Source: Verrucomicrobiota bacterium (GTDB lineage: Bacteria; Verrucomicrobiota; Verrucomicrobiia; Verrucomicrobiales; DEV007). From it: 52,782 nt of DNA. Where the stretch lies: positions 1-52,782 of the forward strand of contig JAJRVS010000214.1 in assembly GCA_024277195.1 (NCBI GenBank), read 5' to 3'. Within the stretch, counting starts at the first letter, position 1; each line of letters begins with the position of its first letter. The position numbers and the translations under genes are program-made. The notes below the pieces were generated by a model that worked only from the letters and a program-made list of their open reading frames with translations, was not told the origin of the DNA and did no database searches. Positions 17,471 through 36,927 of the stretch are shown piece by piece.

Positions 17471-17502
17471 CTTGACCGCCAAAGCCTCGGCGAAGGAGGT
17501 TC
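17471..17502. repeat. CTTGACCG/AAGCCTC/GCGAAGGAGGTT repeat, copy 2
   Basis: This matches 3791-3822 and overlaps by two bases the stop codon of the GntR-type regulator (17501-17503). Its position at the 3' end of a minus-strand gene is the same as for copy 1. Confidence 0.5.
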
Positions 17503-18571: not shown

Positions 18572-18587
18572 TGAATTTTTCCCCTTC

Positions 18588-18610
18588 ACTGGTTTTATTA
18601 TAAAACCAGT
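18588..18610. promoter_or_regulatory. 23-bp palindrome, probable operator for the GntR/LacI-type regulator
   Basis: Arms ACTGGTTTTAT and ATAAAACCAGT pair perfectly around one central base. The site lies 17 bp upstream of the regulator start (18571) and 48 bp upstream of the divergent PhyH gene. This is the expected place for an operator controlling both directions. A possible plus-strand promoter (TTGCAA at 18620, GATTAT at 18643, 17-bp spacing) lies just downstream and is tentative. Confidence 0.75.
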
Positions 18611-18657
18611 ATAGCCCGCTTGCAAAGCACTAATGCAAAAAGGATTATATTAACCCT

Positions 18658-19446: not shown

Positions 19447-20217
19447 ATGAACCCATCCTCTAAAAATCCACCCACCCTACCCCTCAGCGAGCTCTACCAA
19501 CTCAAACGCTGGAACACTCCCACCATTTACAACGGCTGGGAACAAATAACGAAACAAAATCCCGCTGCAGATTCGTTTAACATAGAAGAAAGCCACGACT
19601 TCATGCCGCAGATGGGCCCGATGGTCGGATACGCTGTCACCCTGGTGATCGAACCCAGCAATGAGGAGCACCGCCAAAGCAACCCAAATGCGGGCGCCGA
19701 GTATCGTGAATACATCGCCAGCATTCCCGGACCCAAAATCGTCGTCGTGCAGGATCTCGACAAACCCCGGGTATTGGGATCCCATTGGGGAGAGGTCAAC
19801 GCCAATCTGCATCGCGCGCTGGGATGCGTCGGAACCATCACCGACGGCGCGATCCGCGATGTGGATGAAATGTGCAACGCAGGTTTTAAAGCCATCGCCA
19901 AGCGTCTCTGTGTCGGACACGCGTTTGTTCATCCGGTGCGCTGGGGCTGTGAAGTAGAAGTCTTCGGCCGCACAGTGAACCCCGGCGACCTGATCCACGC
20001 GGATCAACATGGTTTCATGAGCATCGCCCCCGAAGATCAAGCAGGCTTGCTCGATGCCTCACGCTTCATGGATGAAAATGAATGCAAAACCGTGATTCCA
20101 GCGATTCGGGCATCAGCGGATAAAAATGCCGCAGATTTGTTAAACCATGTCGAACAGTCCATCATCCAGTTCCGAAACAATCTGAAAGACAAATTCAACA
20201 ACTCCGGCGAATGGTGA
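19447..20217 (+). CDS. RraA-family (4-hydroxy-4-methyl-2-oxoglutarate aldolase-like) protein
   Basis: The 256-residue protein has the RraA fold signature HWGEVNANLHRALGCVGTI, then DGAIRDVDEM with R137 and D138. These residues bind pyruvate and metal in HMG/CHA aldolases of this family. The late phrase PGDLIHADQHGFMSI is also typical. The N-terminal extension (about 1-50) is longer than in RraA proper. I infer a metal-dependent aldolase or decarboxylase acting on a 2-oxo acid. Operon neighbours on both sides are within 35 bp. It is not expected to act as the RNase E regulator, because the aldolase-type residues are present. Confidence 0.87.
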   Translation: MNPSSKNPPTLPLSELYQLKRWNTPTIYNGWEQITKQNPAADSFNIEESHDFMPQMGPMVGYAVTLVIEPSNEEHRQSNPNAGAEYREYIASIPGPKIVVVQDLDKPRVLGSHWGEVNANLHRALGCVGTITDGAIRDVDEMCNAGFKAIAKRLCVGHAFVHPVRWGCEVEVFGRTVNPGDLIHADQHGFMSIAPEDQAGLLDASRFMDENECKTVIPAIRASADKNAADLLNHVEQSIIQFRNNLKDKFNNSGEW

Positions 20218-20251: not shown

Positions 20252-21499
20252 GTGAAACACCTCATCATCATTCCTTTGATCACTTTATCCTGCTTCGGCT
20301 TAGCTGCAGCACGCGATCTACACGTTGATCCAGCTCAAGGCAATGATACTAACGATGGTTCCTCGCAACCTCTGAAAACCATCAAGCGCGCTATCCGGAT
20401 TGCGCAGCCCGGTGATACCATCCACCTCAAACCTGTTATCTATTACGAATACGCGGGATTCCACAACAAACGAGGTGAAGCGGGAAAACCTATCACCCTC
20501 GACGGTCATGGAGCCACGCTCGAAGGCTCTGATGCGATTGATCCTTCCACCTGGCAAGAAGTGAGCCCGGGGCTCTTCAAAAACGACCACCTCACGCCTA
20601 CACTCAATCGCGCCATTTTGTGGCGCTGGTTTTTCCTCTTCGATGGCAAAATCAATCGCATGGGTCGAGTCATGAAAGGCAAAAGCGGTGACTTTAAAAA
20701 ACCCGAGGATTTACAGATCGGTGAATGGACTTTTGTAGCAGCAGGCGAACCCAGTTCCGCAAGCGGCGATTCGCAAAAAGCCCCTGGCACTTTTTATCTC
20801 AAAATCAAATCGGGCCAAAGCTTGGCGGAAGCTAGCATCAGATACCCAGTGAGACCCGCGGGCGTTATTTTTAGCGGAGACAATGCCCACCTCGTCATTC
20901 GCAATCTCACCGCAAGCCATCCCTACAACGACGGCTTTAATATCCACGGAGACTGTCGCGATGTGCTCTTTGAGAACATCCGCGCCTTCGAATGCGGCGA
21001 TGACGGCATCAGTGCCCATGAAAGTGCGCAATACAGCGTCGATGGATTCGCCTCGATCGGCAACGGCACGGGCATCTGTGACACCGGCAGCAGTCAAACC
21101 TCTTACAACCATCTTTTCATCGCTGACTGCGTTGGCGTTGATCTCTACTTCCTCGATACCGGACGTTACTCCATCAGCAATGCCGTCGTGCTTTCATCCG
21201 CGCAAAAGCCCTTGATCGTAACTGGAACAGCCAAGGGTTCTTGTGAATTAAAAATCGACAACCTGTTCATCAAGCGATTAGCAAAACCACAAGCCGCCTT
21301 GATCGCCAGCAACTGCAGTCTATATGCCAATAAACTCACCCTCGATGGTCTAGATATCAAAGTCACCGGCAAAGCAGAGTTCAAAAATTGCCTGATCAAT
21401 GGTCACCCTAATCCGAAAGACGCAAAAAAACCTGGCGCTGATCTCAAACAACTCCTCAAAACTGTCGTTCCCGAAACCTACCTACCCCTACTCGATTAA
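20252..21499 (+). CDS. Secreted right-handed beta-helix protein
   Basis: The start is GTG at 20252, giving a signal peptide (MKHLIIIPLITLSCFGLAAA). The 415-residue protein begins with the DUF1565-like phrase DLHVDPAQGNDTNDGSSQPLKTI followed by AIRIAQPGDTIHLKP. Parallel beta-helix coils follow, for example HLVIRNLTASHPYNDGF and VLFENIRAFECGDDGI. Such proteins are often polysaccharide lyases or carbohydrate-binding helices. No lyase catalytic residues could be assigned. The next gene begins 5 bp downstream, so they are translated from the same mRNA. Confidence 0.8.
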   Translation: MKHLIIIPLITLSCFGLAAARDLHVDPAQGNDTNDGSSQPLKTIKRAIRIAQPGDTIHLKPVIYYEYAGFHNKRGEAGKPITLDGHGATLEGSDAIDPSTWQEVSPGLFKNDHLTPTLNRAILWRWFFLFDGKINRMGRVMKGKSGDFKKPEDLQIGEWTFVAAGEPSSASGDSQKAPGTFYLKIKSGQSLAEASIRYPVRPAGVIFSGDNAHLVIRNLTASHPYNDGFNIHGDCRDVLFENIRAFECGDDGISAHESAQYSVDGFASIGNGTGICDTGSSQTSYNHLFIADCVGVDLYFLDTGRYSISNAVVLSSAQKPLIVTGTAKGSCELKIDNLFIKRLAKPQAALIASNCSLYANKLTLDGLDIKVTGKAEFKNCLINGHPNPKDAKKPGADLKQLLKTVVPETYLPLLD

Positions 21500-21504
21500 T
21501 AACA

Positions 21505-23070
21505 ATGAAACTGCAAACCCTTACCTCCATCCTTGCTCTGTCATTCAGCGCGATTATTTCCCAAGCCGAAGAACAGGTTCTCTTCTCCTTCGACGATCAC
21601 AGCATCCCCTGGCAACACAACTTGAAACTCACACTGGTCCAAGCCGACAAACATCCTGACAACCCCGTGTTGCTGCGTGGACCGGAAGGCTCCCCCGATA
21701 ATGCTCATGCCATTCTTTACGGCACAGTCATCAAGGATAAGGACAAGTTTCGCATGTGGTACCTCGGCAGCTTTGATGCAAAACAACTGAAGACCCCAGC
21801 TCCAGAAAACTGGCGTCCCATGTGTTACGCCGAGAGCAAGGACGGCATTCGCTGGAAAAAGCCAAATTTAGGTTTAGTCGAATTCAACGGCAATAAAAAC
21901 AACAACATCTGCCTCATCCAGGGTAATCCGCAATCACTGACGCTCGTCAATGATTTCCTCTCAGTGATGCACGACCCCAGCGATCCCGATCCGGCCAAGC
22001 GTTTCAAAGTCGCCTACATCGCTCATGTGCCCTACGAGGAAATCGCCGGTGGCATGAGCAGCATAGGCAGGAAAGAAAAAAACATCTGCTCCACCATCTG
22101 CGCAACCAGTGCCGATGGACTAACTTGGAAAGTTGTCGGAGATAGCCCCGCAAATGCAAGTGGCGAGCGTTTTGAAGTCAGTGGTCTCTATCGCTTTGGT
22201 GACTTCTATTATTCCACTGGTCAAATCATCGGCCCTTGGTCGTGGCAGACGGACGGATCCTTCCGCAAAGATCCTAACCGCCCTGATCCCGACCGCGTGA
22301 TGCGAGTGTATCGTTCCTCGGATTTCAGCTCGTGGTCACAAGCCACCGCATTAAGCTTTGCCCGTCCCGGACAACTTGCCAGCCCACCCGTTAGAGGTCA
22401 ACAAACCCACATGGGAGCAGGCTTGTGGAATCGCGGCAAGGTCATGCTCGGGCTCTACGGGCAATGGCAGGACACCGCCGAACCGCCTGCCAAAGGCCAT
22501 GGTTTTAACGAAGGGGTTCACATTGACCTTGGACTCATTGTGAGCAATGACGGCATTCATTTCCGCGAACCGGTGGCGAACCACAAAGTCATCGCCGTAG
22601 GCAACAAAGGCGAATGGGATGACGTTGCGTTGCTCCAGGGGCATGCCTTTGTCAATGACGGCGATAAAACGATGATCTGGTATTCCCACTGGGACACCAG
22701 CGGCCAAGGCAAACCTATGGAAATCGGTCTGGCAACTTTGCGCCGGGATGGTTTTGGATATTTATCTGCGCAGGAGGATGACAATGAATCGGAGTTTGCC
22801 ACCGACTTTTTTGAATCGGATAAAAACACAAAGATCCATCTGAACGTGGATGGTCTGACTACCGAATCACCACTCGAAATCGAACTGCTCAACCACCTTG
22901 CCAAACCCCTGCCCGGATTCTCTGGAGCCGATGCGGTCAAGATCACAGACAACGGTACACGCCTGCCAATCACCTGGTCAAAAAAAATACCCAGCGGAAA
23001 ACTTGCTCTTAGAGTAAAATACCCCATCAACAGTAAAGCCAAAGTATATGCAATCTATCTAAATGAGTAA
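21505..23070 (+). CDS. Secreted GH32/GH43-like five-bladed propeller protein
   Basis: A signal peptide (MKLQTLTSILALSFSAIISQA) precedes propeller blades typical of the GH32/GH43 superfamily. Examples are HPDNPVLLRGPEGSPDNAH, FRMWYLGSF, MCYAESKDGIRWKKP and DKTMIWYSHWD. The 521-residue protein ends in a beta-rich domain (about 440-521). Whether it hydrolyses glycosides is open: I cannot name the acid residues, and many Verrucomicrobiota proteins with this fold lack characterised activity. It sits in the middle of the operon between the beta-helix protein and an esterase, 84 bp upstream of the latter; that gap contains a GC-rich repeat. Confidence 0.75.
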   Translation: MKLQTLTSILALSFSAIISQAEEQVLFSFDDHSIPWQHNLKLTLVQADKHPDNPVLLRGPEGSPDNAHAILYGTVIKDKDKFRMWYLGSFDAKQLKTPAPENWRPMCYAESKDGIRWKKPNLGLVEFNGNKNNNICLIQGNPQSLTLVNDFLSVMHDPSDPDPAKRFKVAYIAHVPYEEIAGGMSSIGRKEKNICSTICATSADGLTWKVVGDSPANASGERFEVSGLYRFGDFYYSTGQIIGPWSWQTDGSFRKDPNRPDPDRVMRVYRSSDFSSWSQATALSFARPGQLASPPVRGQQTHMGAGLWNRGKVMLGLYGQWQDTAEPPAKGHGFNEGVHIDLGLIVSNDGIHFREPVANHKVIAVGNKGEWDDVALLQGHAFVNDGDKTMIWYSHWDTSGQGKPMEIGLATLRRDGFGYLSAQEDDNESEFATDFFESDKNTKIHLNVDGLTTESPLEIELLNHLAKPLPGFSGADAVKITDNGTRLPITWSKKIPSGKLALRVKYPINSKAKVYAIYLNE

Positions 23071-23073
23071 TAT

Positions 23074-23098
23074 TTGTGGGCGAGCGCTGCGCTTGCTT
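23074..23098. repeat. GC-rich GTGGGCGAGCGCT repeat, copy 2
   Basis: This matches 3694-3717 and sits inside the operon, in the 84-bp gap before the esterase gene. It could be a processing or attenuation point in the mRNA, but this is speculative. Confidence 0.4.
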
Positions 23099-23154
23099 TC
23101 CCTAGGTCTCGACAAGCAGAACACCTGTTCTACAAACCCCACCACCCTACCCGC

Positions 23155-24021
23155 ATGAAGTCCCTTCTTTTTTTCTTAGCAGCTACAACTGCCCTGATGT
23201 TTTCAGGTATCAACGCAATTCAGGCCGCTGAAGCACCTATCCCATTATGGCCACTTGGCGCACCGGGTGCACTTGGCAATCAGCAAAAGGACATACCAAC
23301 GCTTACACCTTATGTTCCCGACAAACCCAAAGGCGTCGCCATGCTACTGATCCCAGGCGGCAGTTATTCCGGCATTTATGAAGGACAGGCAGAGCCCTTT
23401 GCCCTTTGGCTCAACGAGCAAGGCATCACAGCCTTTATATTACGCTATCGCCTCGGCAGCGCGGGTTATCGTTATCCTAGCCAACTACAAGATGCCGTGA
23501 AAGCGATGCGTTACATCCGCGGCCATTCTGCAAAATGGAAAATCGATGCCAAGCGAATAGCAGTGATGGGATTTTCAGCGGGCGGTCATTTGGTATCGTC
23601 GCTGCTCACCAATCCGCAAGACGGTGATATTGAGTCTACAGATGAGAACAGTCAAATCAGCTCTCGGCCGGATTTAGCAATTCTCTGTTATCCAGTCATC
23701 AGCATGATCACCAAGCCTCATAAAAATTCGCGCAAAAACCTGATCGGCGAATCTCCTAGTGATGAGTTGATCCGCAAAACTTCAAGTGAACTGCAGGTAA
23801 AAACAGGACTGCCACCCTGTTTTGTTTGGCACACCAACGAAGACAAGTTGGTCCCACCCGATCACAGTCTGCTTTTTGCCACTGCTTTACACAAATTTGC
23901 TGTACCATGTGAATTGCATCTCTATCAGCAAGGCGATCACGGCACAGGACTTATTGGCACGGAACACCCTTGGTTCGATGACCTGTTTTTCTGGCTACGT
24001 GCCCAGGAATTTATCGACTAA
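23155..24021 (+). CDS. Secreted alpha/beta hydrolase (acetyl-xylan-esterase-like)
   Basis: The ATG at 23155 gives a signal peptide (MKSLLFFLAATTALMFSG); the frame is open 27 codons further upstream, but that part includes the repeat and has no leader character. The 288-residue protein has the oxyanion-region phrase LLIPGGSYSGIYEG, the nucleophile elbow VMGFSAGGHL, the Asp region WHTNEDKLVP and the His in QQGDHGTGL. A catalytic triad is therefore visible. It probably removes acyl groups from a glycan in the periplasm. It is the first of two alpha/beta hydrolase genes in this operon. Confidence 0.87.
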   Translation: MKSLLFFLAATTALMFSGINAIQAAEAPIPLWPLGAPGALGNQQKDIPTLTPYVPDKPKGVAMLLIPGGSYSGIYEGQAEPFALWLNEQGITAFILRYRLGSAGYRYPSQLQDAVKAMRYIRGHSAKWKIDAKRIAVMGFSAGGHLVSSLLTNPQDGDIESTDENSQISSRPDLAILCYPVISMITKPHKNSRKNLIGESPSDELIRKTSSELQVKTGLPPCFVWHTNEDKLVPPDHSLLFATALHKFAVPCELHLYQQGDHGTGLIGTEHPWFDDLFFWLRAQEFID

Positions 24022-24044: not shown

Positions 24045-26546
24045 ATGAAACTTCTTATCATTTTCAGCACCTTTTTTTGTCTACTTGCCGCAGCAAGCGC
24101 ACAGAAGAAAAGCACTCCCTATTCTCCCCAGCACCGTCTCACCATGGCGGAATACGAAGGCACCCTGCGCTTGTGGAAAAAACAACACCCGCAATGGGTC
24201 ACGGTGGAATCCCGTGGCATCAGCGGGAAAAACATGCCGGTCTATTTACTCAAAATAACCGACAAATCGGTGCCCGATACCGACAAACAAGTCTGCCTGG
24301 TCACTGCTCTGCACAGTGGGCCCGAGCGAACCGGAACCACCGGCGCCCTTGCTTTCGCCGAGTGGATGCTCAGCGATGATGTGCTCGCCGCAGAAACTCG
24401 CCGTCGTCAAATCATCCTGATTATGCCTATCATCAATCCGCAGTCGATGTTTTTCACCGACCGCTTTCGCAATGAACATGGCGTGGATCCTTATGCGGGA
24501 GCCGGCCCCAAAGGCAAAGTCTGGGACATCAAAACACTGACCGTCAAGCAGCCCGAACTGGCACCCGAGTTGATGGCCTTTGTTTCGGTGGTCGATCAAT
24601 ACCAACCCGAAGTCCACGCCGATTTCCATGGTACCGGCCTGCAGGAATACGCTGCCGATCAACTCGGTACCAGGCAAACCTATCACGGCCAGATCATGAC
24701 CGAGGTCACCGGCGGTGCTTATTCCAACTACGCCCTGCGCCCCTGGGACTGGCGCGTGACCGAAGCGATGATCGCATCCGGCAATGCCGCCGGTTTTCCC
24801 TCCGATCGTTTTGAAGCGGATGCACAACGCACTTTCTGGGGCGCTGAGCTGGCTCCCTTGGGACAAAAACTCTGGCATGGTCGACCTCAATTTTATTCCG
24901 CCCACTACGCCTACGCCAAATACCACACCTTGATCATCACCCAGGAAGTGGCTTGGGAACAAAGCGTCATCGAACGCATGAAAGGTCTGCTGCGCATTGG
25001 CAATCAAGTCTGGGGCGATCAACGTCAAGCCAGCTATCCGGTCAACCGAATGAAACACTTTGTCGGTCATTTTGTCACTGCTTATGGCAACAGCGCCAGC
25101 GAGCGCAGAAAGAGCCGCGTTGAACTGTGGTCCAAACAAGGCAAGCTTGCTTTGGGTTTTATGTATCCACAGACCGACGGTCGCGAGAGCCTGGTTTGCG
25201 CGACAACGGCCGCGGCAAAAAAAGCCGTCGCGGTTCATGGTCTTGATGACTTGCACGCCAATCTACGCAAACAATTCCCCACTGATGCTGCGAACATCGA
25301 AAGCTTCATCAAAGCGGGGCCGGAAATCAAACTGGCGATGGGAACACCCAATACCCATTTACTCGCTGCAAAAGAAGTCGATGATCTAAAATTCGAAAAT
25401 GGCGTCAGCTTTCGCCTGCGTCTGCCTTATCAGAAACCAAGCAATTTAAAAGTCCAACTCAATGGCCAGACCTTGAAAACCAGCGCCAACGACGGATACG
25501 AAAGCTGGCTCGCCGACGGGTTCACCCAGATCCAAGTAAACGTGCCTGCCGTCAAATCACAAAAAACCGAGCTTTACTTTATCACCTGTTCTTACACCCC
25601 CGATCAAAAACGCTCCATCGGATGGATGCCTCCTGCAGAAGTGCAAAAACAGAACGCCACCGCCAAAGCGGAAGCCACTCCGGCAACTTTCACCGACCTG
25701 TCCTACGGCAAACATTTTCGCCAAAATCTAGACTTGTGGCTGGCGAAATCCACACAGCCCACCCCACTGGTATTTTACATCCACGGCGGTGGCTGGGCAG
25801 CTCAGGACAAAACAGACATCCACCAACACCTCGATGTGAAAGCCTTGCTCGATGCAGGTATTTCCGTTGCTTCGGTGAACTACCGTCTACTGCAGGACGC
25901 CAATGCGGCAAAGGTCAGTCCTCCACTGCAATGGCCGCTGAATGACAGCAAACGCGCCTTGCAGTTCCTGCGTTCGAAAGCCGGTGAATGGAATATCGAC
26001 AAAAAACGCATCGCCGCCAGTGGAGTCAGTGCCGGAGGCTGTGCTTCTTTATGGCTAGCCCTGCACGATGACATGGCAGAGGCAAAAAATGACGATCCCC
26101 TTGAGCGTGAATCCACCCGACTTTTTGCCGCCGCCGTCCTATCTCCACAAACCTCGCTCGATCCCAAACAGCTGCGTGAATGGATTTCCAACAGCGAGTA
26201 TGGCGGACGGGCTTTTGGTTTCAAAGGCGCCAGCCGCGCTGATTCCTTCATCCCCTTCCTCGCCGCCCGCGATTCTATCATCGCTGACATTCAACGCTAC
26301 TCCCCGATCGAACACGCCAGCAAAGACGATCCCCCGATATTCATGGAATTCCCCCGACAGGATAAAACTCCTGTTGCGGGAGAAAAACAAAGTGATCCCA
26401 CCCACTCGGCCGTGTCCGGTCTGATGCTCGATCAAAAACTGCAATCATTCGGCGTAAAATCCGAGCTGCGTTATCTAAATGATGGCAAAAAGGGAAATGC
26501 CAACATCCAGGAATTCCTACTCCAGATACTAGGCTCGAACAAATAA
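24045..26546 (+). CDS. Fusion of M14-like metallopeptidase and alpha/beta hydrolase
   Basis: The 833-residue secreted protein (signal peptide 1-19) has two enzymatic parts. Residues about 25-330 resemble zinc carboxypeptidases of family M14: H90 and E94 in LHSGPERTG, H191/H195 in EVHADFHGTG, and E301 in ITQEVAWE as a candidate general base. The H90-E94 spacing is HxxxE rather than the usual HxxE. Residues about 330-540 form a beta-rich linker. Residues about 545-833 are an alpha/beta hydrolase with HGGGW (580-584) and GVSAGG (S662). I infer cleavage of an amide and an ester decoration on one substrate. The next gene starts 6 bp downstream. Confidence 0.8.
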   Translation: MKLLIIFSTFFCLLAAASAQKKSTPYSPQHRLTMAEYEGTLRLWKKQHPQWVTVESRGISGKNMPVYLLKITDKSVPDTDKQVCLVTALHSGPERTGTTGALAFAEWMLSDDVLAAETRRRQIILIMPIINPQSMFFTDRFRNEHGVDPYAGAGPKGKVWDIKTLTVKQPELAPELMAFVSVVDQYQPEVHADFHGTGLQEYAADQLGTRQTYHGQIMTEVTGGAYSNYALRPWDWRVTEAMIASGNAAGFPSDRFEADAQRTFWGAELAPLGQKLWHGRPQFYSAHYAYAKYHTLIITQEVAWEQSVIERMKGLLRIGNQVWGDQRQASYPVNRMKHFVGHFVTAYGNSASERRKSRVELWSKQGKLALGFMYPQTDGRESLVCATTAAAKKAVAVHGLDDLHANLRKQFPTDAANIESFIKAGPEIKLAMGTPNTHLLAAKEVDDLKFENGVSFRLRLPYQKPSNLKVQLNGQTLKTSANDGYESWLADGFTQIQVNVPAVKSQKTELYFITCSYTPDQKRSIGWMPPAEVQKQNATAKAEATPATFTDLSYGKHFRQNLDLWLAKSTQPTPLVFYIHGGGWAAQDKTDIHQHLDVKALLDAGISVASVNYRLLQDANAAKVSPPLQWPLNDSKRALQFLRSKAGEWNIDKKRIAASGVSAGGCASLWLALHDDMAEAKNDDPLERESTRLFAAAVLSPQTSLDPKQLREWISNSEYGGRAFGFKGASRADSFIPFLAARDSIIADIQRYSPIEHASKDDPPIFMEFPRQDKTPVAGEKQSDPTHSAVSGLMLDQKLQSFGVKSELRYLNDGKKGNANIQEFLLQILGSNK

Positions 26547-26552
26547 CACATC

Positions 26553-28262
26553 ATGAGATCCTTCTACCTATTTACCGCTGCTCTTTCCCTATCCATCATT
26601 CATGGATACAGCGAACCCACTGCCAAAAATAATCATATCACCGGACTCTGGTTGATGGGACAATCCTTGTGTGAGGGCGCACAATCCTTACCTATCGTCA
26701 CCTCCGCCGATACCGGTCATGGCAACTTCTCTTTCAAACGCGGCGTGCGCACCTGGCGCTATGGCGATCACAACAAGGATCCGCAACAACGCGCCAACGA
26801 GCAATTTGTTTTCACTTCACTCACTGCCCACCTATTTGGTGGCCTGGGAGAAACCATCGCCAACGGCCTGGCGGACCATCTCAGTTTTAGTTTAGCAAAA
26901 TCAAAAAACGCCCCATCCAAGCAGCCTATCCGCGCCCCGTTTTTGGTCTCTTACGCCGGTCAGGGCGGGCGTATGATCGATGAACTTTCCCAAACCGATC
27001 AAAGCAGCGATGCCCGCACACCCAAATCGAGGCAGCACGGTGGAGGCTACTACCGGACCAGTCTCGACGATGCCCGCCGCGCTCGCCAACAAGCTGAAAC
27101 CGTGGGTAAAACTTTCTCCATCGGCGCGCTGGTCTGGATGCAGGGAGAAGCCAATGGCGGACCCACCGGAGGCATCAATCCCAGTCGCTGGGATGAAGAA
27201 TTACCACGCCCGGGAGGACTGCAATGGTACCGTGACCGACTGATTGCTTACCGCCAACAGTGGTCGCACGACCTACAGGCGATCACCGGACAAAGTGGCG
27301 AGCTTCCCCTGTTCACCTACCAGACTCAAGGGGTAGCAGGCGAAGCTCAGCTCATGGCAGCCGATCAGAATCCGCACATCACCATGGTCGGTCCTCACTA
27401 CATGGTGGCGAGCGGTCTCAACAGTCAATACGCAAAACGATACGGGGCTGCCATCCATCTGTCAGCCGACGGCGAACGCTGGTATGGAGAACAAGTTGCC
27501 AAAGTGATGCAGCGCGTTCTCACCGCAGGCGAAAAATGGCAACCACTGCGACCACTCAAAGCAACCATCGCTGACGACCGTAAAAGCGTGTTGATTGACT
27601 TCCACGTTCCCCGCCCGCCATTGGTATTGGATCATGACTTCCTCGCTCGACAACATTATAAAGTCGGCGAGGCTTTTTCATCTCTCAACGGATTGCAAAT
27701 ACGCAACTCGGCAAGGGCGGTTTCATTGATCCGCTCCATCGAAGTGGCCTCCCCTACCGCACTCCGCATTCGTCTGGCCTCCCCCTTAAAAAATGACACT
27801 GACTATCATGTCAGCTATGGACAATCTTATGCCGGTCAATTTGGAGAAATCGCCAGCATCCGTGAAGGGCCGAAGCTTGGTGAACAAAAAACCACGGAGC
27901 TTCTGATCAAAGGTGACCTGAGCCAACAACTGTCGCCCTTGAGCAAGGAAGGTGCCTTCAATGTTTCAAATACGAACACGGCAGGACCATACACCCAGGC
28001 CAGCATCCGTCATCTCTACGTCGAAAACGGCTTCACTGTGCTACGTTTTGAAAACCGCGAACTGCGTAGTCAAGTCAAGTTCAGCTCCGAGCAAATGCTC
28101 ACCGCTCACCGGCCTTTTGCCTACGGCAACCTGCGCGATTCTGATCCTGCACAATCGATTTATCAATTCGCCGACAAGACCTACGGAAATCGCGCCGGAC
28201 AAAACTACCCGCTGTGGAACTGGTGCGTGCTCTTCAAACAATTTCCAATTTCTGACCAATGA
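26553..28262 (+). CDS. Secreted sialate O-acetylesterase-like SGNH hydrolase
   Basis: A signal peptide (MRSFYLFTAALSLSIIHGYS) precedes the SASA/SGNH esterase blocks: LMGQS (S38, nucleophile), LVWMQGEANGG (oxyanion hole) and AIHLSADGERWYGE (catalytic His). The 569-residue length includes a C-terminal beta domain of about 200 residues. Enzymes of this family remove O-acetyl groups from sugars such as sialic acid, xylan or other glycans. Its 3' end overlaps the next start by 4 bp (ATGA), so the two are translationally coupled. Confidence 0.85.
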   Translation: MRSFYLFTAALSLSIIHGYSEPTAKNNHITGLWLMGQSLCEGAQSLPIVTSADTGHGNFSFKRGVRTWRYGDHNKDPQQRANEQFVFTSLTAHLFGGLGETIANGLADHLSFSLAKSKNAPSKQPIRAPFLVSYAGQGGRMIDELSQTDQSSDARTPKSRQHGGGYYRTSLDDARRARQQAETVGKTFSIGALVWMQGEANGGPTGGINPSRWDEELPRPGGLQWYRDRLIAYRQQWSHDLQAITGQSGELPLFTYQTQGVAGEAQLMAADQNPHITMVGPHYMVASGLNSQYAKRYGAAIHLSADGERWYGEQVAKVMQRVLTAGEKWQPLRPLKATIADDRKSVLIDFHVPRPPLVLDHDFLARQHYKVGEAFSSLNGLQIRNSARAVSLIRSIEVASPTALRIRLASPLKNDTDYHVSYGQSYAGQFGEIASIREGPKLGEQKTTELLIKGDLSQQLSPLSKEGAFNVSNTNTAGPYTQASIRHLYVENGFTVLRFENRELRSQVKFSSEQMLTAHRPFAYGNLRDSDPAQSIYQFADKTYGNRAGQNYPLWNWCVLFKQFPISDQ

Positions 28263-29938
28263 ACTCAAAAAAAACCACTACGAAATCAGGTTTATCCCGA
28301 CGCCAATTCATTCGTACCAGCACCCTTGCCGGAGCTGCAACCATGGGATATAGCTCCACAGGATTTGGCCAAAACCTCAATCACCGTGAAGCTCTGTCTA
28401 AGCGCAAAATCCGCGTAGTGGTTCAGCATGATGCCCACGTGGTCATGCAGGATTGCCGCAAACACTTCGGCGCTGATCAAGCATCCTTTGATACTTTTAG
28501 CGAAGCGGTATTCTCTCACATGGATGATCCCCAAAGCCAAATCGACTCGATTTGCTGGGATCTCAATGGAGCCTCACCAGGATCGGTCTACCCCAGTGGG
28601 ATCCTCCCCCCTGTAGATAACCCCTTGTTAAAAGTGTGGTATAAGGTGGACATTGATTGGATCAAGGAACTGTTGAAAGAATCCCGAAAACGAAAACTAG
28701 AAGCTTTCTGGAACTACCGCATCAGTGAAGTGGACGGCTTGGCAGGTGGCGGTTTGGCGAAAGAAAAAATGAGTCCACTGAAAGCCGCTCACCCTGATTG
28801 GCTCGTCCCCGACACCTGGTGGTGGCAAGGCATGTGGAATCTAGCGTCTCCGGGTTTGCGCGAACACAAAATCGAAGTGCTGCGTGAACTGGTCACTCGT
28901 TATGACTTCGATGGTGTTCAGATTGATTTTTCCCGCCACACCCCCTGCCTCCCGATAGGGCAGCAATGGGAAATGCGCGAACACGTCACCGAGTTCATGC
29001 AAATGGTCCGACTGCTGCTTGACGAGTCAGGAAAAAAACGAAAGCACCCTATTTTATTAGCCGCAAAAGTACCACGTAATCTGGAAGGCTGCCGCATCGA
29101 CGGCTTCGATATCAAGGCATGGGCAGATAAGAAACTGGTGGACATACTCACTCTGGGATCACGATCAATCGATGTGGAAGTGGAAGCTTTTCGCAACTTG
29201 GTCGGAGATCAAATCCAATTGCAACCTTGTTTCGATGACCATCACGCCACCGACGGCTACCGCCATCAATCGATTGAGTTTCTGCGTGGCGTATTCGCCA
29301 ATCATTGGCAACGCGGTGCGGACAGCGTGACCACATTCAACTGGTCCACCGGTATTCCTGATGCCGCAAAAAAAGTGGGATCCGAAATTGGTCCACTGTC
29401 GCAACAGGTCGCATACCAGGAAATTGGTGCCCCCGCCTCCATGGTCGGCAAGGACAAAATTTTCGCGATCGAACGCCGCGGGGGTTATCCCTGGTCAGAC
29501 GGATTTTTTAATCACAATCACACTTCGCCTTTGCCGGCAGTTCTTTCGCAAGACAAGGCAGACATCCTTTTACCTTTACACATCAGTGATGCCCCGAAGG
29601 CGACTCAATCAACCCATCCCAAGTTCACCCTTCGTTGCATTTTATTCGGCGCAAAAGCGGACGACTCGTTCGAGTTCCGTATCAACAACACTCCGCTCAC
29701 GACAGGTGTGCGGGACACTGAATGGAAAGATGCCCAGATCTTTTCCCCCAAGCGCCAGCCCACATCCGGTGGCAAAGGGCTTTATAAAATCAATCCCAAA
29801 CAACAACTGCTGCGAATCGATTGCCTCGTGCCCAACAATGCCTGGCAACAAGGCCTCAATCAGATTTCCATCCGTCTGACTTCGATAAATAAAAAGCCAG
29901 TTCAAATCGAAAAATTAGAAGCTCACCTCAAATACTGA
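28259..29938 (+). CDS. Tat-exported glycoside hydrolase-like TIM-barrel protein
   Basis: The 559-residue product has a twin-arginine signal (SRRQFIRTSTLAG, then GFGQ). A TIM barrel follows that resembles uncharacterised glycosidase families (GHL10/DUF187 type): SICWDLNGASPG, LEAFWNYRISE, FDGVQIDFSRH (with an Asp at a catalytic-acid position) and PILLAAKVPR. The C-terminal 150 residues form a beta domain. I do not recognise a named family and the substrate is unknown. It overlaps the previous gene by 4 bp and is followed after 7 bp by the amidohydrolase-aminotransferase fusion. Confidence 0.75.
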   Translation: MNSKKTTTKSGLSRRQFIRTSTLAGAATMGYSSTGFGQNLNHREALSKRKIRVVVQHDAHVVMQDCRKHFGADQASFDTFSEAVFSHMDDPQSQIDSICWDLNGASPGSVYPSGILPPVDNPLLKVWYKVDIDWIKELLKESRKRKLEAFWNYRISEVDGLAGGGLAKEKMSPLKAAHPDWLVPDTWWWQGMWNLASPGLREHKIEVLRELVTRYDFDGVQIDFSRHTPCLPIGQQWEMREHVTEFMQMVRLLLDESGKKRKHPILLAAKVPRNLEGCRIDGFDIKAWADKKLVDILTLGSRSIDVEVEAFRNLVGDQIQLQPCFDDHHATDGYRHQSIEFLRGVFANHWQRGADSVTTFNWSTGIPDAAKKVGSEIGPLSQQVAYQEIGAPASMVGKDKIFAIERRGGYPWSDGFFNHNHTSPLPAVLSQDKADILLPLHISDAPKATQSTHPKFTLRCILFGAKADDSFEFRINNTPLTTGVRDTEWKDAQIFSPKRQPTSGGKGLYKINPKQQLLRIDCLVPNNAWQQGLNQISIRLTSINKKPVQIEKLEAHLKY

Positions 29939-29945
29939 TACCCTC

Positions 29946-32291
29946 ATGTCTATTTCCCTCATCACCCAACTCACTGACGCTGACCATAAAATGATTCGTC
30001 AGGCCTGCGATGATTTTGTGCCTGACAAGATCTTCGATATTCATGCCCATCTATTTCACTCGAAGCATTTCGCCGCAGGGAAACGCCCGGAATTCCTCGC
30101 AGAGGACACTGGTTACGGAATGACAGATTTCCGCGAAGCTCTTGGTCGCTGGTTGCCCAATCGGGAAGTCGAAGGACTTTTCTTTGGCTACCCCTCACCG
30201 GGCAATGACCGGGTAGGTGAAAATCACTGGGTTGCCTCGCAGCTCGAACAATATCCCGAGCAGCGCTTGAGCCGTAAGCTCGCTCTGGTCTCTCCTGAAG
30301 ACGGTGAAGAGGCCACTCGAACACTGATCCAGGAACGTGGATTCAACGGTATCAAACCCTACCGTCTTTACGCGCCGGTGGACGATACCAATCAAGCCCG
30401 TATCGAGGAATTCGCCCCGCGCTGGATGTGGCAGATTTGCCATGATATCAAGGGCGTGATGGTGCTTCACATCATGCGCAGCGAAGGCATCGCCGATCCG
30501 GATAATCTGGAAAGCATCGAACGGCTCTGTAAGGAGTTCCCCGACTGCCGTCTGGTTCTTGCCCATATTGCGCGTTCGTTCAACTACCGCAATGCGCGGA
30601 CAGCTCTGCGAAAAATCGAATCACTCGACAATGTGGTCGTCGACACTTCGGCGGTGACCGAAGTCGAAGCGATGCGGGTCGCCCTCGATTCCCTCGGTCC
30701 GCAACGCGTGCTGTTCGGCAGTGATTACATGGTCAGTGAATTGCGCGGAAAATGTTTCACCATGGGTGACGGATTTTCCTGGATCTATACCGAGAATCTG
30801 CCCTCACCCGCAGTCACAGCTTTTGAAAATTCGGCGCTGGTCGGCGTTGAATCTTTGCTCTGCCTGCGTGAGGCTTTTGACATCGGCGGTTTCAACTCAG
30901 CAGACGCGCAAGACGTCTTCCACGACAATGCTTTGAGACTATTATCGCCCCATCTGGATGACTCCGATGTCCCAAAAAGTCCGAGCGGTCCGGAACTCGC
31001 ATCCACCGCTCAGCAGAGTATTTCCTGCGGCACCGGCCTGCTATCCAAACGTCCGGAAAGCTTTGATCCGGCGACCTGGCCTGCTTATTTTTCTCGCGCG
31101 TCCGGTTCTTATATCTGGGACATGAGCGGACGCAAGTTGATGGATTTCACCGGCGGAGCGGGAGCCATCCTGCTCGGACACAGTGATCCCGACGTCAATG
31201 CCGCAGTGCGTCGCCGACTCAGTCTGGGAACCTATTCCATCCTCGCCTCACCGGATGAAGTGACCCTCGCCGAAACCTTGATCGACCTACACCCCTGGGC
31301 TGACAAAGTGCGTTATGCCCGTGGAGGTGGTGAAGCCCTGAGCATCGCCGCCCGTATTGCCCGCGCCGCCACCGGACGCAGCAAAATTGTGTTCTGTGGA
31401 TACCATGGCTGGAGCGATTGGTATTTGTCCGCCAACCTCTCCGGAACTGAAGCTCTCGAAGGCCACCTCCTACCCGGTCTGGAGCCACATCGTGTGCCTT
31501 CCGAACTCGCCGGAACGGCGATCCCATTTAAATACAACGATTACCAGGCTTTCGAAAAAGCCTTCGCCGCTGCCGATGACCAACCTGCCGCTGTCATCAT
31601 GGAGCCGATGCGCGCTGAATTGCCGCGTGATGGTTTTATGGAAAAAATCGTAGCCCGTTGCCGAGCTGCAGGAACCGCTTTCATCATCGATGAAGTCACC
31701 GCTGGTTGGCGCTTTGGTTTCCCCGGTGGCTGTGCCAAAATAGGCATCGAACCCGACATCGCCGTTTACGCCAAAGCCATGTCCAACGGCATCCCCTGCG
31801 CCGCCATCGTCGGACGTGGCGAAATCATGGATGCCGCCAATGACAGTTTCATTTCCTCAAGCTACTGGACCGACGGCATCGGCCCCGCTGCTGCCCTGGC
31901 CTGCATCAATAAAATGCAGCGTAGGGGAACCCAAAACCATGTCTGGTCATTGGGAGAAAAACTACAGGGAAAATTACGCCAACTCGCCGAGCAACATCCG
32001 GAACTCAAACTCAAAATCGGCAGCCAAGCCTGCGCGCCTTCGCTCGCCTTTCAACTCGGTGAAGACAGCCTCGCCACCAAAACCCTGATGATCCGCGAAA
32101 TGCTCAAACGAGGCTTCCTGTTTTCAAGCCAACTCTACGTTTTGGGCACACACGATGAAAACCAGATCAACAGCATGTTAACCGCCCTCGATGAAAGCCT
32201 TGGCGAATTGGATAAACTGCAAACCGAAGGCAAGCTGCAAAACCAAGTGGGCGACAAAAAAGCCAGCGCCGGTTTTGGCCGATTGGCTTAA
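29946..32291 (+). CDS. Amidohydrolase fused to class III aminotransferase
   Basis: This 781-residue protein without a signal peptide joins two complete-looking enzymes. Residues about 25-335 are an amidohydrolase-2 barrel: H33 and H35 in FDIHAH, K137 in GIKPYR, H175 in VLHIM, H207 in LAHIA and D260 in FGSDY. Residues about 370-755 resemble glutamate-1-semialdehyde aminomutase and other class III PLP enzymes: ARGGGEALSIAARIAR, YHGWSDWY, FIIDEVTAGWR (D582) and YAKAMSNG (K610, PLP Schiff base). The linker (about 337-370) is Ser/Pro-rich. I infer coupled hydrolysis or decarboxylation and transamination of an amino-sugar-derived intermediate. It ends the operon. A read-through of two genes is excluded because there is one uninterrupted frame. 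Confidence 0.88.
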   Translation: MSISLITQLTDADHKMIRQACDDFVPDKIFDIHAHLFHSKHFAAGKRPEFLAEDTGYGMTDFREALGRWLPNREVEGLFFGYPSPGNDRVGENHWVASQLEQYPEQRLSRKLALVSPEDGEEATRTLIQERGFNGIKPYRLYAPVDDTNQARIEEFAPRWMWQICHDIKGVMVLHIMRSEGIADPDNLESIERLCKEFPDCRLVLAHIARSFNYRNARTALRKIESLDNVVVDTSAVTEVEAMRVALDSLGPQRVLFGSDYMVSELRGKCFTMGDGFSWIYTENLPSPAVTAFENSALVGVESLLCLREAFDIGGFNSADAQDVFHDNALRLLSPHLDDSDVPKSPSGPELASTAQQSISCGTGLLSKRPESFDPATWPAYFSRASGSYIWDMSGRKLMDFTGGAGAILLGHSDPDVNAAVRRRLSLGTYSILASPDEVTLAETLIDLHPWADKVRYARGGGEALSIAARIARAATGRSKIVFCGYHGWSDWYLSANLSGTEALEGHLLPGLEPHRVPSELAGTAIPFKYNDYQAFEKAFAAADDQPAAVIMEPMRAELPRDGFMEKIVARCRAAGTAFIIDEVTAGWRFGFPGGCAKIGIEPDIAVYAKAMSNGIPCAAIVGRGEIMDAANDSFISSSYWTDGIGPAAALACINKMQRRGTQNHVWSLGEKLQGKLRQLAEQHPELKLKIGSQACAPSLAFQLGEDSLATKTLMIREMLKRGFLFSSQLYVLGTHDENQINSMLTALDESLGELDKLQTEGKLQNQVGDKKASAGFGRLA

Positions 32292-32518: not shown

Positions 32519-34021
32519 TCACGCCATCACGTCCTTGATCACATGGCCATGCACCACGGTCAGGCGGCGTTCGAGTCCATTGTGATAGTAGGTCAGACGT
32601 TCGTGGTCAAAACCCATCAACCGTAAAATCGTTGCGTTAAAATCGTATAAAGTCAGCGGATTCTCAGCCACCTTGAAGCCAAATTCGTCGCTCGCCCCGT
32701 AACTGGTTCCAGCATTAACTCCCGCGCCCATGAACCATGCCGTGAACGCTCCCGGATTATGATCCCTACCGGTTCCATTTTCCTGCAAAAAAGGCATGCG
32801 TCCAAATTCAGTACACCAAACCACCAGAGTATCATCCAGCATGCCTCGCTGTTTCATATCCTGCAGCAGGGCCGCAGTCGGTTGATCCATGATCTCCGCT
32901 TGCATACCATGGGTTTTCTCCAAATCATTATGCGAATCCCAGTTGGTGATTCCGTTGCCACCACTGGCATCCGAACCGTTGAACAACTGCACCACCCTCA
33001 CCCCTTGCTCCAACAACCTCCGTGCCAAAATGCAATTCCTCGCGTATGCCTTTTTGGTATCACTGCCACTGTTGGTGCCATACTGACGATGAATAAAAGC
33101 AGGTTCCTGATCGATGCGGGTGACTTCTGGAATCGACAGTTGCATCTTGCCAGCCAACTCGTAACTCGCGATACGGGCGGCCAAATCAGCATCCCCCGGG
33201 TATTGGTTCAGGTGTTTGTCATTCAAACGTACCAACAAATCCACCGCTCGTTTTTTGCCCGCTGGTGATTGTGATGCACTGCTTTTGAGATTGGCAGGTG
33301 GATTGGTCGCATTAAAATCAGTCCCCTGAAAAGCTGCCGGCAAAAAACCCGATCCCCAGTCATTTTTACCCGAACGCGGTTTCCCGCGTGGGTCTTCAAT
33401 CGCCACAAACGCGGGCAAGGACTCGTTCTCACTGCCAAGCGCATAGGTCATCCAAGATCCCAATGACGGAAAACCCTCAAAAGTGGAGCCCGTATTGATC
33501 AAGTTCTCCGCTTGTGGATGTGCGCTGGTCTGGGTGGTCAGCGAGTGCACAAAACACATGTCGTCCGCCATCTCTGCGAGGTTCGGCAACAGGTCGGAAA
33601 TCATTTTTCCCGACTGACCCCGCGGACGGAATTTCCACGGTGACTGCGCCACGCTACCGGTCGGCCCGGAAAAAGTAACCGCAGGCAAACCTGGTGGTTT
33701 TTTACCATGAAACCGTGCCAGATCCGGTTTGTAATCAAAGGTATCAATGTGACTGACCGCACCCGGACAAGAAATAATCAGTAGCTTTTTTGCCTTTACT
33801 GGAAACATCGGTTTCCGTGCCGCGTAAGGATCACTGGAATTAATTTGAGGGCGAAACGGGCCTTTCGCCTTGGATGAATTTGCTAACAAGGAGTCAGCGC
33901 CGAGCAGTTGTAACAGTGAAAAACCTCCCATCAACCCTGCGGTTTGACCAAGGAAATTGCGCCGGTCAAGCAGGCTTCGCCCCATGGCAGATAAATGTGT
34001 CGCGTCGCGATTGTGATGCAT
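32519..34021 (-). CDS. DUF1501-family Tat-exported protein
   Basis: DUF1501 proteins are sulfatase/phosphatase-fold proteins nearly always encoded next to PSCyt1/DUF1549/DUF1553 cytochromes in Planctomycetota and Verrucomicrobiota. The 500-residue product has a Tat-like signal (LDRRNFLGQTAGLMGGFSLL). It has the family phrases KAKKLLIISCPGAVSHIDTFDYKP, VVQLFNGSDASGGNGITNWDSH, TLVVWCTEFGRMPF and GRDHNPGAFTAWFMGAGV. The upstream partner cytochrome gene ends 20 bp before its start. The biochemical role of this pair is not established. Confidence 0.93.
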   Translation of the reverse strand: MHHNRDATHLSAMGRSLLDRRNFLGQTAGLMGGFSLLQLLGADSLLANSSKAKGPFRPQINSSDPYAARKPMFPVKAKKLLIISCPGAVSHIDTFDYKPDLARFHGKKPPGLPAVTFSGPTGSVAQSPWKFRPRGQSGKMISDLLPNLAEMADDMCFVHSLTTQTSAHPQAENLINTGSTFEGFPSLGSWMTYALGSENESLPAFVAIEDPRGKPRSGKNDWGSGFLPAAFQGTDFNATNPPANLKSSASQSPAGKKRAVDLLVRLNDKHLNQYPGDADLAARIASYELAGKMQLSIPEVTRIDQEPAFIHRQYGTNSGSDTKKAYARNCILARRLLEQGVRVVQLFNGSDASGGNGITNWDSHNDLEKTHGMQAEIMDQPTAALLQDMKQRGMLDDTLVVWCTEFGRMPFLQENGTGRDHNPGAFTAWFMGAGVNAGTSYGASDEFGFKVAENPLTLYDFNATILRLMGFDHERLTYYHNGLERRLTVVHGHVIKDVMA

Positions 34022-34041
34022 AAAATCTTAATGTTTAGAAG

Positions 34042-36927
34042 TTAGTCTAAAAAGGCAAATTCATTGGTATTAAACAAAACCCGGGCAAGCGCAGCCAAAC
34101 CATCCTGCTCCACTACGAGTTGCGACGCAGCTTTTTCATCTGCCTGGGGTTTGCGGCTCAGCACCAGTAAGAACAAACGCTCAACTTGTTTGCCCACGTC
34201 AGCCTTTGCTGCTCCCAATTCCCGCTTAACCCGTTGGGAAATCTCCTCAGCCTGAATCTCCACCAATTTACCATTCATCAGATTTAATGCCTGAATCGGA
34301 GTGGTCGAAACCGGACGTTTTGAACTTAGGGTTTTACAGTCAGGCAAGTCGAATGCCATGAACATCCGATCGTCCACACCTCGCATTCTTTGTTGGTAAA
34401 ACAACCTGCGCCAGGTCTGCGGACTCGAATTGTCCACCACCTTCCATTGCGCATATCGTTTTTTATCAGCATGAATACGATAGCCCTTGCCCCCCACCCG
34501 CTGATCCAGAGTGCCCGCAGCGAGCAAAATCGAATCGCGCAAAACCTCTGCTCCCACACGCCGAGGAGCAAAACGCCACAACAAACGGTTGCCCGCATCC
34601 ACCTTGAGCGCCTCCGCTCGCGGCAAACTCGCCTGCGCAAAGCTCTGCGATAAAAGCAAACGCCGGACCATCGCTTTCATGTCCCATTGACTATCCACAA
34701 ACTGCTTGGCCAAATAATCCAACAGTTCAGGGTGCGAAGGTTTCTCCCCCGCTTGCCCAAAATCATCCAACGTGCTGACGATGCCACTGCCAAACACGTG
34801 ATACCATATACGGTTGACCGCCACCCGCGCAGTGAGTGGATTTTTTCCGTCCACCAACCAATCGGCAAAAGCCAGGCGTCGTTCCGCTCCGGTGCTTTGA
34901 TCCGATAATTTCAGGTCGCTGCGAAAAGCCGAAAGAGCATTGGGAATCACTGCATCCCCTTTATTATTCGGGTCCCCCCGTTGCAGAACCCGGGTGGCGA
35001 CAGGGGGGATAAACTTACCTGCAAAGATGGGTTGCGGTCCCTCGTGATACATTTCCAAGGTCAACTCATTGAGCTTGCTCAGACGTTTGTCACTAGGTTC
35101 CCCCTTTTTACCGCCCACCTTGTTTTTAGCTGACTGAGCCCCGACAGAAAAAACCGTCTTCCAGTTTTCACCATCCAAACTGACCTCCACCTGATAACGC
35201 GAAAACCCCGGCTTGTTATTTTCTTCGAGATAATCCGTATTGGTCAGCGCCGCTCGGTTAGTGCTGAGATCTATCCGGTCGATATTTGCCAATTCAGCCA
35301 ATTCAATCACAAAACCCTGCTCTTTTTTTGCATTGATACGTCCTCCACTCCACCCCCAAAAAGCTTCTCGTTCGCCATCGATCAATTGCTTCGCCCCGTT
35401 ATTAGAGCGGCTGTGTTTGGCATTAAAATCCGTAGCTTGGGAGCCATTAGCGCTCAATGCCAGATTCACCCCGGCGGAATCCGGACCATAAATTTCCACC
35501 TCGTCGACTTTGGCAAATCCGGTGAAAAACTTAACCCGCACAAACTTCGCCTTATTTTCAGGCAAGTGAACCTTACTGTGATCTCCCCAGTCTTCAGACC
35601 AGGCATTTAATCCTGAGGTTTTCAATTGCCCGCGTATCTTTTTCACCTCTGCCAGCAACTGCTGGTATCGTTGCATCCTCGGATGGCCTGGCGCCAACTT
35701 GGGCATGCGATGCCCATACTCGACATCCTGAAACACCGCTACGATCGAATAATAATCTTTCGTGCTGATCGCATCAAATTTGTGATCGTGACAACGCGCA
35801 CAACCAAGCGAAGAGCCTAGTAGCGAAGCCCCCACCGTCTGCATCAACTCATCAAGTCGGTCATAACGTGCTTGCAAAATGGCCGAAGCCTCACGGCCAA
35901 TGGTCGCTGGAGACACATGCGGCCCCGCGACCAGAAAACCCGTGGCTTCATCCACCCCCAATACATCCCCCGCCAATTGCTCCCGCACAAATTGCGCGTA
36001 GGACATATTCTGATTGAACGCCCGCGCCACATAATCACGATACCACCAGGAACGACTACGATACAAGTTATCCTCGGAGCCATTGCTCTCACCAAAACGA
36101 ATCCCATCCAACCAATGCTGCGCCCAGGTTTCTCCAAAACGCGGGGAAGCCAGCAGCCGATCCACATAGGCCGCCACAGCCAGCTCATCAGAACTTTGAT
36201 CTGCAACCAAGCTCTCCACTTCTTCAGGGCTCGGCACCATACCCACCAGGATGATCGACAATCGCCTTGCCAGGTTCCGCCGATCGGCGCGAGCCGAAGG
36301 CGCTAGCTTATTCTTCTCCAAGTCGGAAAAAACAAAACGATCCACCGGTTTTACCGCCCAGCGTTTATTCTTCACCTGGGGAACTTTCACCGACCTCACC
36401 GCCTGCAGGCTCCACCAGCGCAAGCGCTCTTTGGAAACCAACTGCCAAACCAGTTTTTCAGCTTCTTCACTCGACGGCGCATGATCGCGCGGATCCGGCG
36501 CTCCCATCGCCACCCATTTTTCAAAGTCCGCGATCACTTCCTGCGGTAAGGGATCGGAAGGTGGCATCTCAAACTCTCCAAAATGCAGAGCTTCAATCAG
36601 TAGACTTTTTTTCACATCTCCCGGAACCACCGCAAGCCCTGACTTGCCTCCCTTGGCCACATTACCCCTGGAATCCAACCTCAAGCCCCCTTTGGCTTTT
36701 TCACTGATCGCCGAATGGCAATCATAACACTGGGCGATCAATACCGGTTCGATTTTGGTTTTAAAAAAATCAATTCCCTCCGCTTCAGACACCTTGCCAG
36801 ATTGCTCTGCGGCAAAACTCGATACAGCTAAACTCTGTACCAAAAACAACCAGCTCATCCAAGCCGATACCCGATGATGGCTTTCCTCTAATTGTTTGAA
36901 CTTTTGAAAAATAGAATATTGAAACAT
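34042..36927 (-). CDS. PSCyt1/DUF1549/DUF1553 cytochrome c protein
   Basis: The 961-residue protein has a PSCyt1 heme domain with CYDCH (C67, C70, H71) and a distal Met in FEMPPSDPL. DUF1549 follows (KPVDRFVFSDLEKNKLAPS, LGCARCHDHKFDAIS with a second CxxCH), then an inserted galactose-binding-like domain (about 455-600). DUF1553 comes last (FADWLVDGKNPLTARVAVNRIWYHVFG, LRDSILLAAGTLD). The signal peptide MSWLFLVQSLAVSSFAAEQ begins at Met24, so the start at 36858 (938 residues) is a good alternative. It is operonic with the DUF1501 gene. The role is probably periplasmic redox chemistry; the substrate is unknown. Confidence 0.92.
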   Translation of the reverse strand: MFQYSIFQKFKQLEESHHRVSAWMSWLFLVQSLAVSSFAAEQSGKVSEAEGIDFFKTKIEPVLIAQCYDCHSAISEKAKGGLRLDSRGNVAKGGKSGLAVVPGDVKKSLLIEALHFGEFEMPPSDPLPQEVIADFEKWVAMGAPDPRDHAPSSEEAEKLVWQLVSKERLRWWSLQAVRSVKVPQVKNKRWAVKPVDRFVFSDLEKNKLAPSARADRRNLARRLSIILVGMVPSPEEVESLVADQSSDELAVAAYVDRLLASPRFGETWAQHWLDGIRFGESNGSEDNLYRSRSWWYRDYVARAFNQNMSYAQFVREQLAGDVLGVDEATGFLVAGPHVSPATIGREASAILQARYDRLDELMQTVGASLLGSSLGCARCHDHKFDAISTKDYYSIVAVFQDVEYGHRMPKLAPGHPRMQRYQQLLAEVKKIRGQLKTSGLNAWSEDWGDHSKVHLPENKAKFVRVKFFTGFAKVDEVEIYGPDSAGVNLALSANGSQATDFNAKHSRSNNGAKQLIDGEREAFWGWSGGRINAKKEQGFVIELAELANIDRIDLSTNRAALTNTDYLEENNKPGFSRYQVEVSLDGENWKTVFSVGAQSAKNKVGGKKGEPSDKRLSKLNELTLEMYHEGPQPIFAGKFIPPVATRVLQRGDPNNKGDAVIPNALSAFRSDLKLSDQSTGAERRLAFADWLVDGKNPLTARVAVNRIWYHVFGSGIVSTLDDFGQAGEKPSHPELLDYLAKQFVDSQWDMKAMVRRLLLSQSFAQASLPRAEALKVDAGNRLLWRFAPRRVGAEVLRDSILLAAGTLDQRVGGKGYRIHADKKRYAQWKVVDNSSPQTWRRLFYQQRMRGVDDRMFMAFDLPDCKTLSSKRPVSTTPIQALNLMNGKLVEIQAEEISQRVKRELGAAKADVGKQVERLFLLVLSRKPQADEKAASQLVVEQDGLAALARVLFNTNEFAFLD

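Follow-up and report, generated by a model that had tools for sequence, protein, structure and literature searches.

A conserved amidohydrolase-2/class-III aminotransferase fusion in Verrucomicrobiota and related bacteria, with a possible role in amino-sugar catabolism

The window is the whole 52,782-nucleotide stretch of contig JAJRVS010000214.1 from a Verrucomicrobiota bacterium. It contains a run of nine plus-strand genes, separated by gaps of -4 to 34 bases, that follows a divergent regulator composed of a GntR helix-turn-helix and a LacI-type sensor (17501-18625, minus strand; Pfam GntR and Peripla_BP_3). The first gene encodes a PhyH-family oxygenase (18658-19413; Pfam 5.6e-35) and the second an RraA-like protein that is a possible pyruvate aldolase (19447-20217; Pfam 1.4e-19). 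Next come a secreted right-handed beta-helix/DUF1565-like protein, which has a weak Pfam match and recurs near related loci as cluster 11 (20252-21499), and a secreted protein of the unnamed family c1, which distantly resembles five-bladed-propeller glycosidases and phosphorylases (21505-23070). The c1 family, of about 510 residues, has 46 members in 28 loci, has no Pfam match, and finds its best profile match in 7fip (E 1e-6). The fifth and sixth genes encode an alpha/beta hydrolase related by family matches to BD-FAE and acetyl esterases (23074-24021) and an unusual two-domain protein of 833 residues with a Peptidase_M14-like region (residues 41-132) and a BD-FAE esterase domain (residues 562-774) assigned by Pfam (24045-26546); this protein recurs near related loci as cluster 13 (8 loci). 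The seventh is a cluster-8 secreted protein without a Pfam match that resembles sialate O-acetylesterases by eye (26553-28262), and the eighth is a Tat-signal protein with a weak match to the glycoside-hydrolase-like GHL10 family (28259-29938). These last two are secreted proteins of about 560 residues each and probably represent new carbohydrate-active families.

The ninth and last gene of the run encodes a fusion of an amidohydrolase-2 barrel and a class-III aminotransferase (29946-32291, plus strand). Just upstream of the run lie a Gfo/Idh/MocA dehydrogenase (14268-15632, minus strand; Pfam) and an HpcH/HpaI-type 2-keto-3-deoxy acid aldolase (15817-16608, plus strand; Pfam 9.3e-26), which matches YfaU/GarL and other aldolases in the PDB. 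Convergent with the operon is a putative DUF1501-like and PSD-type cytochrome pair (32519-36927, minus strand), of a kind typical of Planctomycetota and Verrucomicrobiota and probably unrelated.

The fusion frame runs from ATG to stop over 781 codons with no internal stop, and the genome record of the same contig shows the same single frame. Its N-terminal Amidohydro_2 domain (PF04909) spans residues 31-333 (30036-30944) and scores 76.5 bits (E 4e-21) against a Pfam cut-off of 26.4 bits. A linker of residues 334-345 (30945-30980) is placed by the predicted model and by the spacing in relatives, in which the interval corresponding to A329-L365 varies from 28 to 63 residues. The C-terminal domain, residues 346-781 (30981-32288), is a fold-type-I PLP-dependent aminotransferase according to Pfam and fold comparison; Aminotran_3 (PF00202) matches residues 380-686 at 146 bits (E 1.7e-42; cut-off 30.5). 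The barrel carries the ligand pattern H33-x-H35, H175, H207, and D260 in addition to K137, R210, D233, and E302. All of these residues, together with the PLP lysine K610 and D582, are invariant in an alignment of 69 full-length fusions. In a 47-row alignment that includes split genes, the barrel residues are again invariant except H33, which is conserved in at least 90% of rows. A preliminary description based on the nucleotide sequence had proposed a single-frame fusion with intact metal ligands and an intact D582/K610 pair, and each of these points was borne out.

Structure prediction, which the same description had recommended, yields two confidently folded domains. The full-chain AlphaFold (AF2) model has a pLDDT of 88.4 and a pTM of 0.84, and the amidohydrolase domain modelled alone reaches 94.6 and 0.93. 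The aminotransferase domain contains an LLSKR motif (residues 365-369; 31038-31052) that is common to nonulosonate-cluster aminotransferases and a GYHGWSDWY motif (residues 485-493; 31398-31424) that starts a highly conserved stretch of low pLDDT. Residues 491-512 form the sole long low-confidence stretch in the model yet rank with the best-conserved regions of the fusion, which suggests that they are probably a mobile active-site loop. By eye, no signal peptide is seen on the fusion, unlike its neighbouring proteins.

Relatives of the fusion were collected by scanning 84,980 species genomes, from which the best 80 of 198 candidate loci were taken as a lower bound. Nearly all of these 80 are full-length fusions, at 85 to 36% identity, from Verrucomicrobiota, Planctomycetota, and Lentisphaerota metagenome-assembled genomes and isolates; one locus from Lentisphaerae (L114) is a split form. 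Cultured isolates with the fusion include Arenibacter latericius DSM 15913, A. catalasegens, and Brevifollis gellanilyticus. A set of 388 genomes from the same phylum as the window includes about ten that encode the fusion and many more that encode the aminotransferase alone. An assembly error behind the linker, with only separate proteins in relatives, had been named as one circumstance that would undo the fusion. Adjacent separate genes do occur in three loci, alongside about 80 true fusions; since the full-length protein recurs in independent assemblies (at 85, 74, and 66% identity) and in cultured isolates, a chimera or frameshift artefact is ruled out and its probability is negligible.

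The aminotransferase half had been described as glutamate-1-semialdehyde aminomutase (GSAM)-like. The fold comparison agrees with this description, and the family label does not stand. HemL shares the fold and PLP site, and structures of the GSAM/ForI group align with the domain at Z 37-39. The fusion nevertheless scores below the curated cut-offs of TIGR00713 (183.9 versus 527.3), PRK00062 (188.9 versus 398), and PRK06209 (203.1 versus 486) and lacks GSAM sequence motifs, so a GSAM or haem function is rejected. A separate GSAM-like enzyme is encoded in the window's genome (L002/L148). The closest solved structures and sequence matches are the aminopentol transaminase FumI (6hbv; Z 41.4, rmsd 2.6 over 399 residues) and the C-6' aminotransferases GenB3 and GenB4 (7lm0 and 7lld; E about 1e-39). 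These are single-domain enzymes with other substrates and only about 25% identity to the fusion.

Much closer, at 40-48% identity, are single-domain class-III aminotransferases in the window's phylum, most of which belong to nonulosonate (pseudaminic or legionaminic acid) biosynthesis clusters. Loci of the eight nearest non-fused aminotransferases contain SpsF (7/8), NeuB, DegT, and AKR (5/8 each), and PseG (2/8). Biosynthetic, split, and fused aminotransferases share the motifs LLSKR, GYHGWxDWY, and FISSxYWT, all of which are absent from the GSAM-type enzyme of the window's genome; LLSKR and GYHGWxDWY are also present in the Pseudosulfitobacter and Halorussus aminotransferases. Sequence comparison thus places the fused domain in the same subfamily as the aminotransferases of nonulosonic-acid clusters. 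In a tree, this subfamily groups apart from other class-III enzymes, with poor support for the deep branching that separates biosynthetic from fused members. Because the active-site motifs are near-identical, fused and biosynthetic enzymes may act on similar substrates.

The biosynthetic relatives differ from the fusion in their partners and setting, being stand-alone or fused to SpsF in biosynthesis loci where the fusion has an amidohydrolase instead. In locus L118, the gene order is DegT, AKR, SpsF::aminotransferase as one chain, PseG, and NeuB (by Pfam, with PseG identified by sequence). The annotated order on Pseudosulfitobacter plasmid pSMR1-1 is pseB-pseC-AKR-GNAT-SpsF::AT-pseG-pseI. The SpsF/PseF CMP-nonulosonate synthetase::aminotransferase single chains (L118:6677-8704; L152:11275-13308 on pSMR1-1) represent a second fusion partner for the subfamily, inside complete pseudaminic-acid clusters. 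In Halorussus, the aminotransferase accompanies NeuB, DegT, SDRs, Gfo/Idh, and an annotated glycosyltransferase in the SpsF position. A table of Legionella Sg6 O-antigen genes lists a "glutamate-1-semialdehyde aminomutase" beside PseG, a cytidylyltransferase, an AKR-like oxidoreductase, and DegT (PMC3694923). The likeness of this Legionella member (Lp6_764) to the fusion aminotransferase is drawn from this annotated context only.

The two domains also occur as adjoining separate genes, with the amidohydrolase first in L119 and L129 and the reverse order in L124. Either half can stand alone, as in L126 (aminotransferase without a nearby amidohydrolase) and L133 (amidohydrolase without the aminotransferase). 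Phylogenies of the halves, which are "quick" trees with long branches for several rows, disagree. In the aminotransferase tree, planctomycete groups A and B cluster with an SH-aLRT of 85 (not starred), and the AU test rejects a clade of A plus the split forms (p-AU 2e-55). In the amidohydrolase tree, a long branch with full support unites group A and the split forms, and AU tests reject both A and B as one clade (p-AU 6e-11) and all fusions as one clade (p 2e-4). A single ancestral fusion with vertical inheritance is rejected by the amidohydrolase AU tests and by the conflict with the aminotransferase tree. Because the two trees conflict so strongly, the sequences indicate either two or more separate origins of the fusion or a lineage that swapped its amidohydrolase half for another subtype. 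Repeated joining is stronger evidence of coupling than a fusion alone, and functional coupling of the two activities is well supported by the adjacent split genes and by two or more events of fusion or domain swapping. Substrate channelling between the halves, as suggested in the preliminary description, would be a further step and is at most a possibility, since the split forms operate with no covalent link.

Gene neighbourhoods were compared between 70 fusion loci over 9 kb and 40 stretches of 20 kb drawn at random from five genomes within the window's phylum (the random windows); p-values from this comparison are rough, as the fusion loci are phylogenetically redundant and the control is small and without Planctomycetota. 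SDRs are found in 32 of the 70 loci versus 4 of the 40 windows. Several families were found in none of the random windows: SSF symporters (29/70), secreted family c1 (25/70), HpaI aldolases (22/70), a second, separate Amidohydro_2 protein (17/70), PhyH and NanM-type kelch proteins (15/70 each), and Gfo/Idh enzymes (14/70). Neither AKR nor sulfatase genes were significantly enriched in this sample. Two loci stand out as especially coherent: L136 (fusion, Gfo, SDR, SDR, HpaI, Gfo) and L119 (c1, Gfo, amidohydrolase, aminotransferase, Gfo, SDR, HpaI, SDR, AKR). In 14 loci other than the window, a c1 member directly precedes the fusion, and the second Amidohydro_2 (cluster 10; e.g., L063:12277-13263) lies downstream of it in about ten Prosthecobacter-type loci.

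Markers of known nonulosonate pathways are scarce near the fusion. SpsF, NeuB, and PseG occur in 0 of 70 loci over 9 kb, and SpsF and NeuB in 0 of 89 near fusions. Sialidase-like BNR proteins (4/70 versus 0/40) and the DapA-family lyase of the Nan pathway of sialic acid catabolism (2/70 versus 1/40) are not significantly enriched. A sialidase was rejected as a consistent neighbour: BNR proteins are rare here, and the one examined matches solved sialidases only partially. NanM was likewise rejected as strong evidence, kelch proteins being common across the phylum and absent from the window's genome.

The best reading is that the fusion is a cytoplasmic bifunctional catabolic enzyme, most likely for a nonulosonic acid of the pseudaminic or legionaminic type or for its 2,4-diamino-hexose fragment, with a probability of roughly 0.42. 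The nonulosonate-type substrate is proposed only because of the aminotransferase kinship; the earlier guess of an amino-sugar-derived substrate agrees with what the neighbourhoods suggest. Secreted enzymes would free an acidic amino sugar and strip its acetyl groups; the sugar would be imported, as by the SSF symporter of many relatives, and oxidised by SDR, Gfo, or AKR dehydrogenases. The amidohydrolase half would then open the resulting lactone, as COG3618 sugar lactonases do, or decarboxylate an intermediate. Next, the aminotransferase half would take the amino group off a carbonyl-forming carbon, running backwards the reaction that its biosynthetic cousin uses to add this group. In the last step, an HpaI/RraA/DapA-type aldolase would split a 2-keto-3-deoxy acid into pyruvate and an aldehyde. 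A broader proposal is that Verrucomicrobiota, Planctomycetota, and some Bacteroidota have a dedicated catabolic pathway for nonulosonic acids of the pseudaminic or legionaminic type, with the fusion of an amidohydrolase-2 enzyme to a reversed biosynthetic aminotransferase as a central bifunctional step that evolved more than once; this is more speculative and on balance doubtful.

The chemistry of the amidohydrolase half is judged by analogy to be either a hydrolytic (lactonase-like) or a decarboxylating step. COG3618 lactonases and ACMSD-type decarboxylases share its Amidohydro_2 fold and HxH-H-H-D ligand pattern at 12-19% identity. The best match by VIA fold comparison is 4dlf (Z 21.6), presumably an L-fucono-1,5-lactonase, which also has a weak sequence match (E 0.17). 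A lactonase is tentatively favoured because of this match and the company of sugar dehydrogenases. A non-oxidative decarboxylase of the ACMSD or resorcylate type, compatible with either substrate hypothesis, is the less likely choice: dihydroxybenzoate decarboxylases rank first in Foldseek, and their VIA scores (Z 20.7-20.9) lie less than 1 below 4dlf, effectively a tie, but no aromatic-degradation genes are seen around the fusion, and sugar dehydrogenases and an aldolase fit a lactone step. Given this tie, the deacylation or decarboxylation step that the preliminary description assigned to this half is only a candidate.

The same catabolic logic could serve another substrate, namely an amino-uronic acid or a different amino-deoxy sugar whose source is an acetylated pectin-like or bacterial exopolysaccharide. 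The aminotransferase would then have come from nonulosonate clusters and altered its specificity. The polysaccharide-lyase-like beta-helix protein, the BD-FAE/PaeX-like pectin-type esterases, and the M14-esterase protein of the window operon would also fit an amino-uronate polymer. HpaI aldolases and KduD-like SDRs suit uronate-type 2-keto-3-deoxy acids, and the lack of BNR and DapA enrichment is in keeping with such a substrate. The active-site motifs, however, are nearly unchanged from those of the biosynthetic enzymes, and AKR and SDR relatives are found in both contexts, making this alternative somewhat unlikely. A role in biosynthesis or remodelling of a modified surface amino sugar is improbable: the closest aminotransferases are biosynthetic and the fusion loci share AKR and SDR relatives with their clusters, but the fusion loci carry a symporter, aldolase, regulator, and secreted hydrolases in place of SpsF, NeuB, and PseG. 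That one half is catalytically dead or merely structural is more improbable still; each half can occur alone, but the catalytic residues of both are invariant in the 69 fusions.

Each half of the protein is of a known kind, and class-III aminotransferases are known in other fusions. PigE and SpsF::AT resemble the fusion in using such an enzyme as a module of a longer chain, but their partner domains differ and are not amidohydrolases. No description of an amidohydrolase-2/aminotransferase fusion as a conserved enzyme, assembled more than once and set in loci for glycan use, was found in the open-access literature searched. On class-III aminotransferases in nonulosonate loci, or nonulosonate catabolism with an aminotransferase, the only item found in the same literature was the Legionella table (PMC3694923). 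In agreement with the suggestion that the architecture lies outside common families, the fusion, which is found in three phyla as well as in Bacteroidota and is conserved across them, falls into no curated named family; its aminotransferase half does not attain the cut-off of any NCBIfam model among the matches listed. Relatives of the fusion would probably be misannotated as glutamate-1-semialdehyde aminomutase. The fusion ties a poorly understood nonulosonate-cluster aminotransferase to a likely breakdown pathway. If this is true, it would provide a genetic handle on environmental bacteria that recycle the surface sugars of other bacteria, as well as a handle on the role of the aminotransferase in biosynthesis.

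The Arenibacter (Bacteroidota) fusions in L076 and L080 nest inside a verrucomicrobial group in both domain trees, which suggests that this locus was acquired by horizontal transfer. In L080, transposase-like genes follow the fusion locus.
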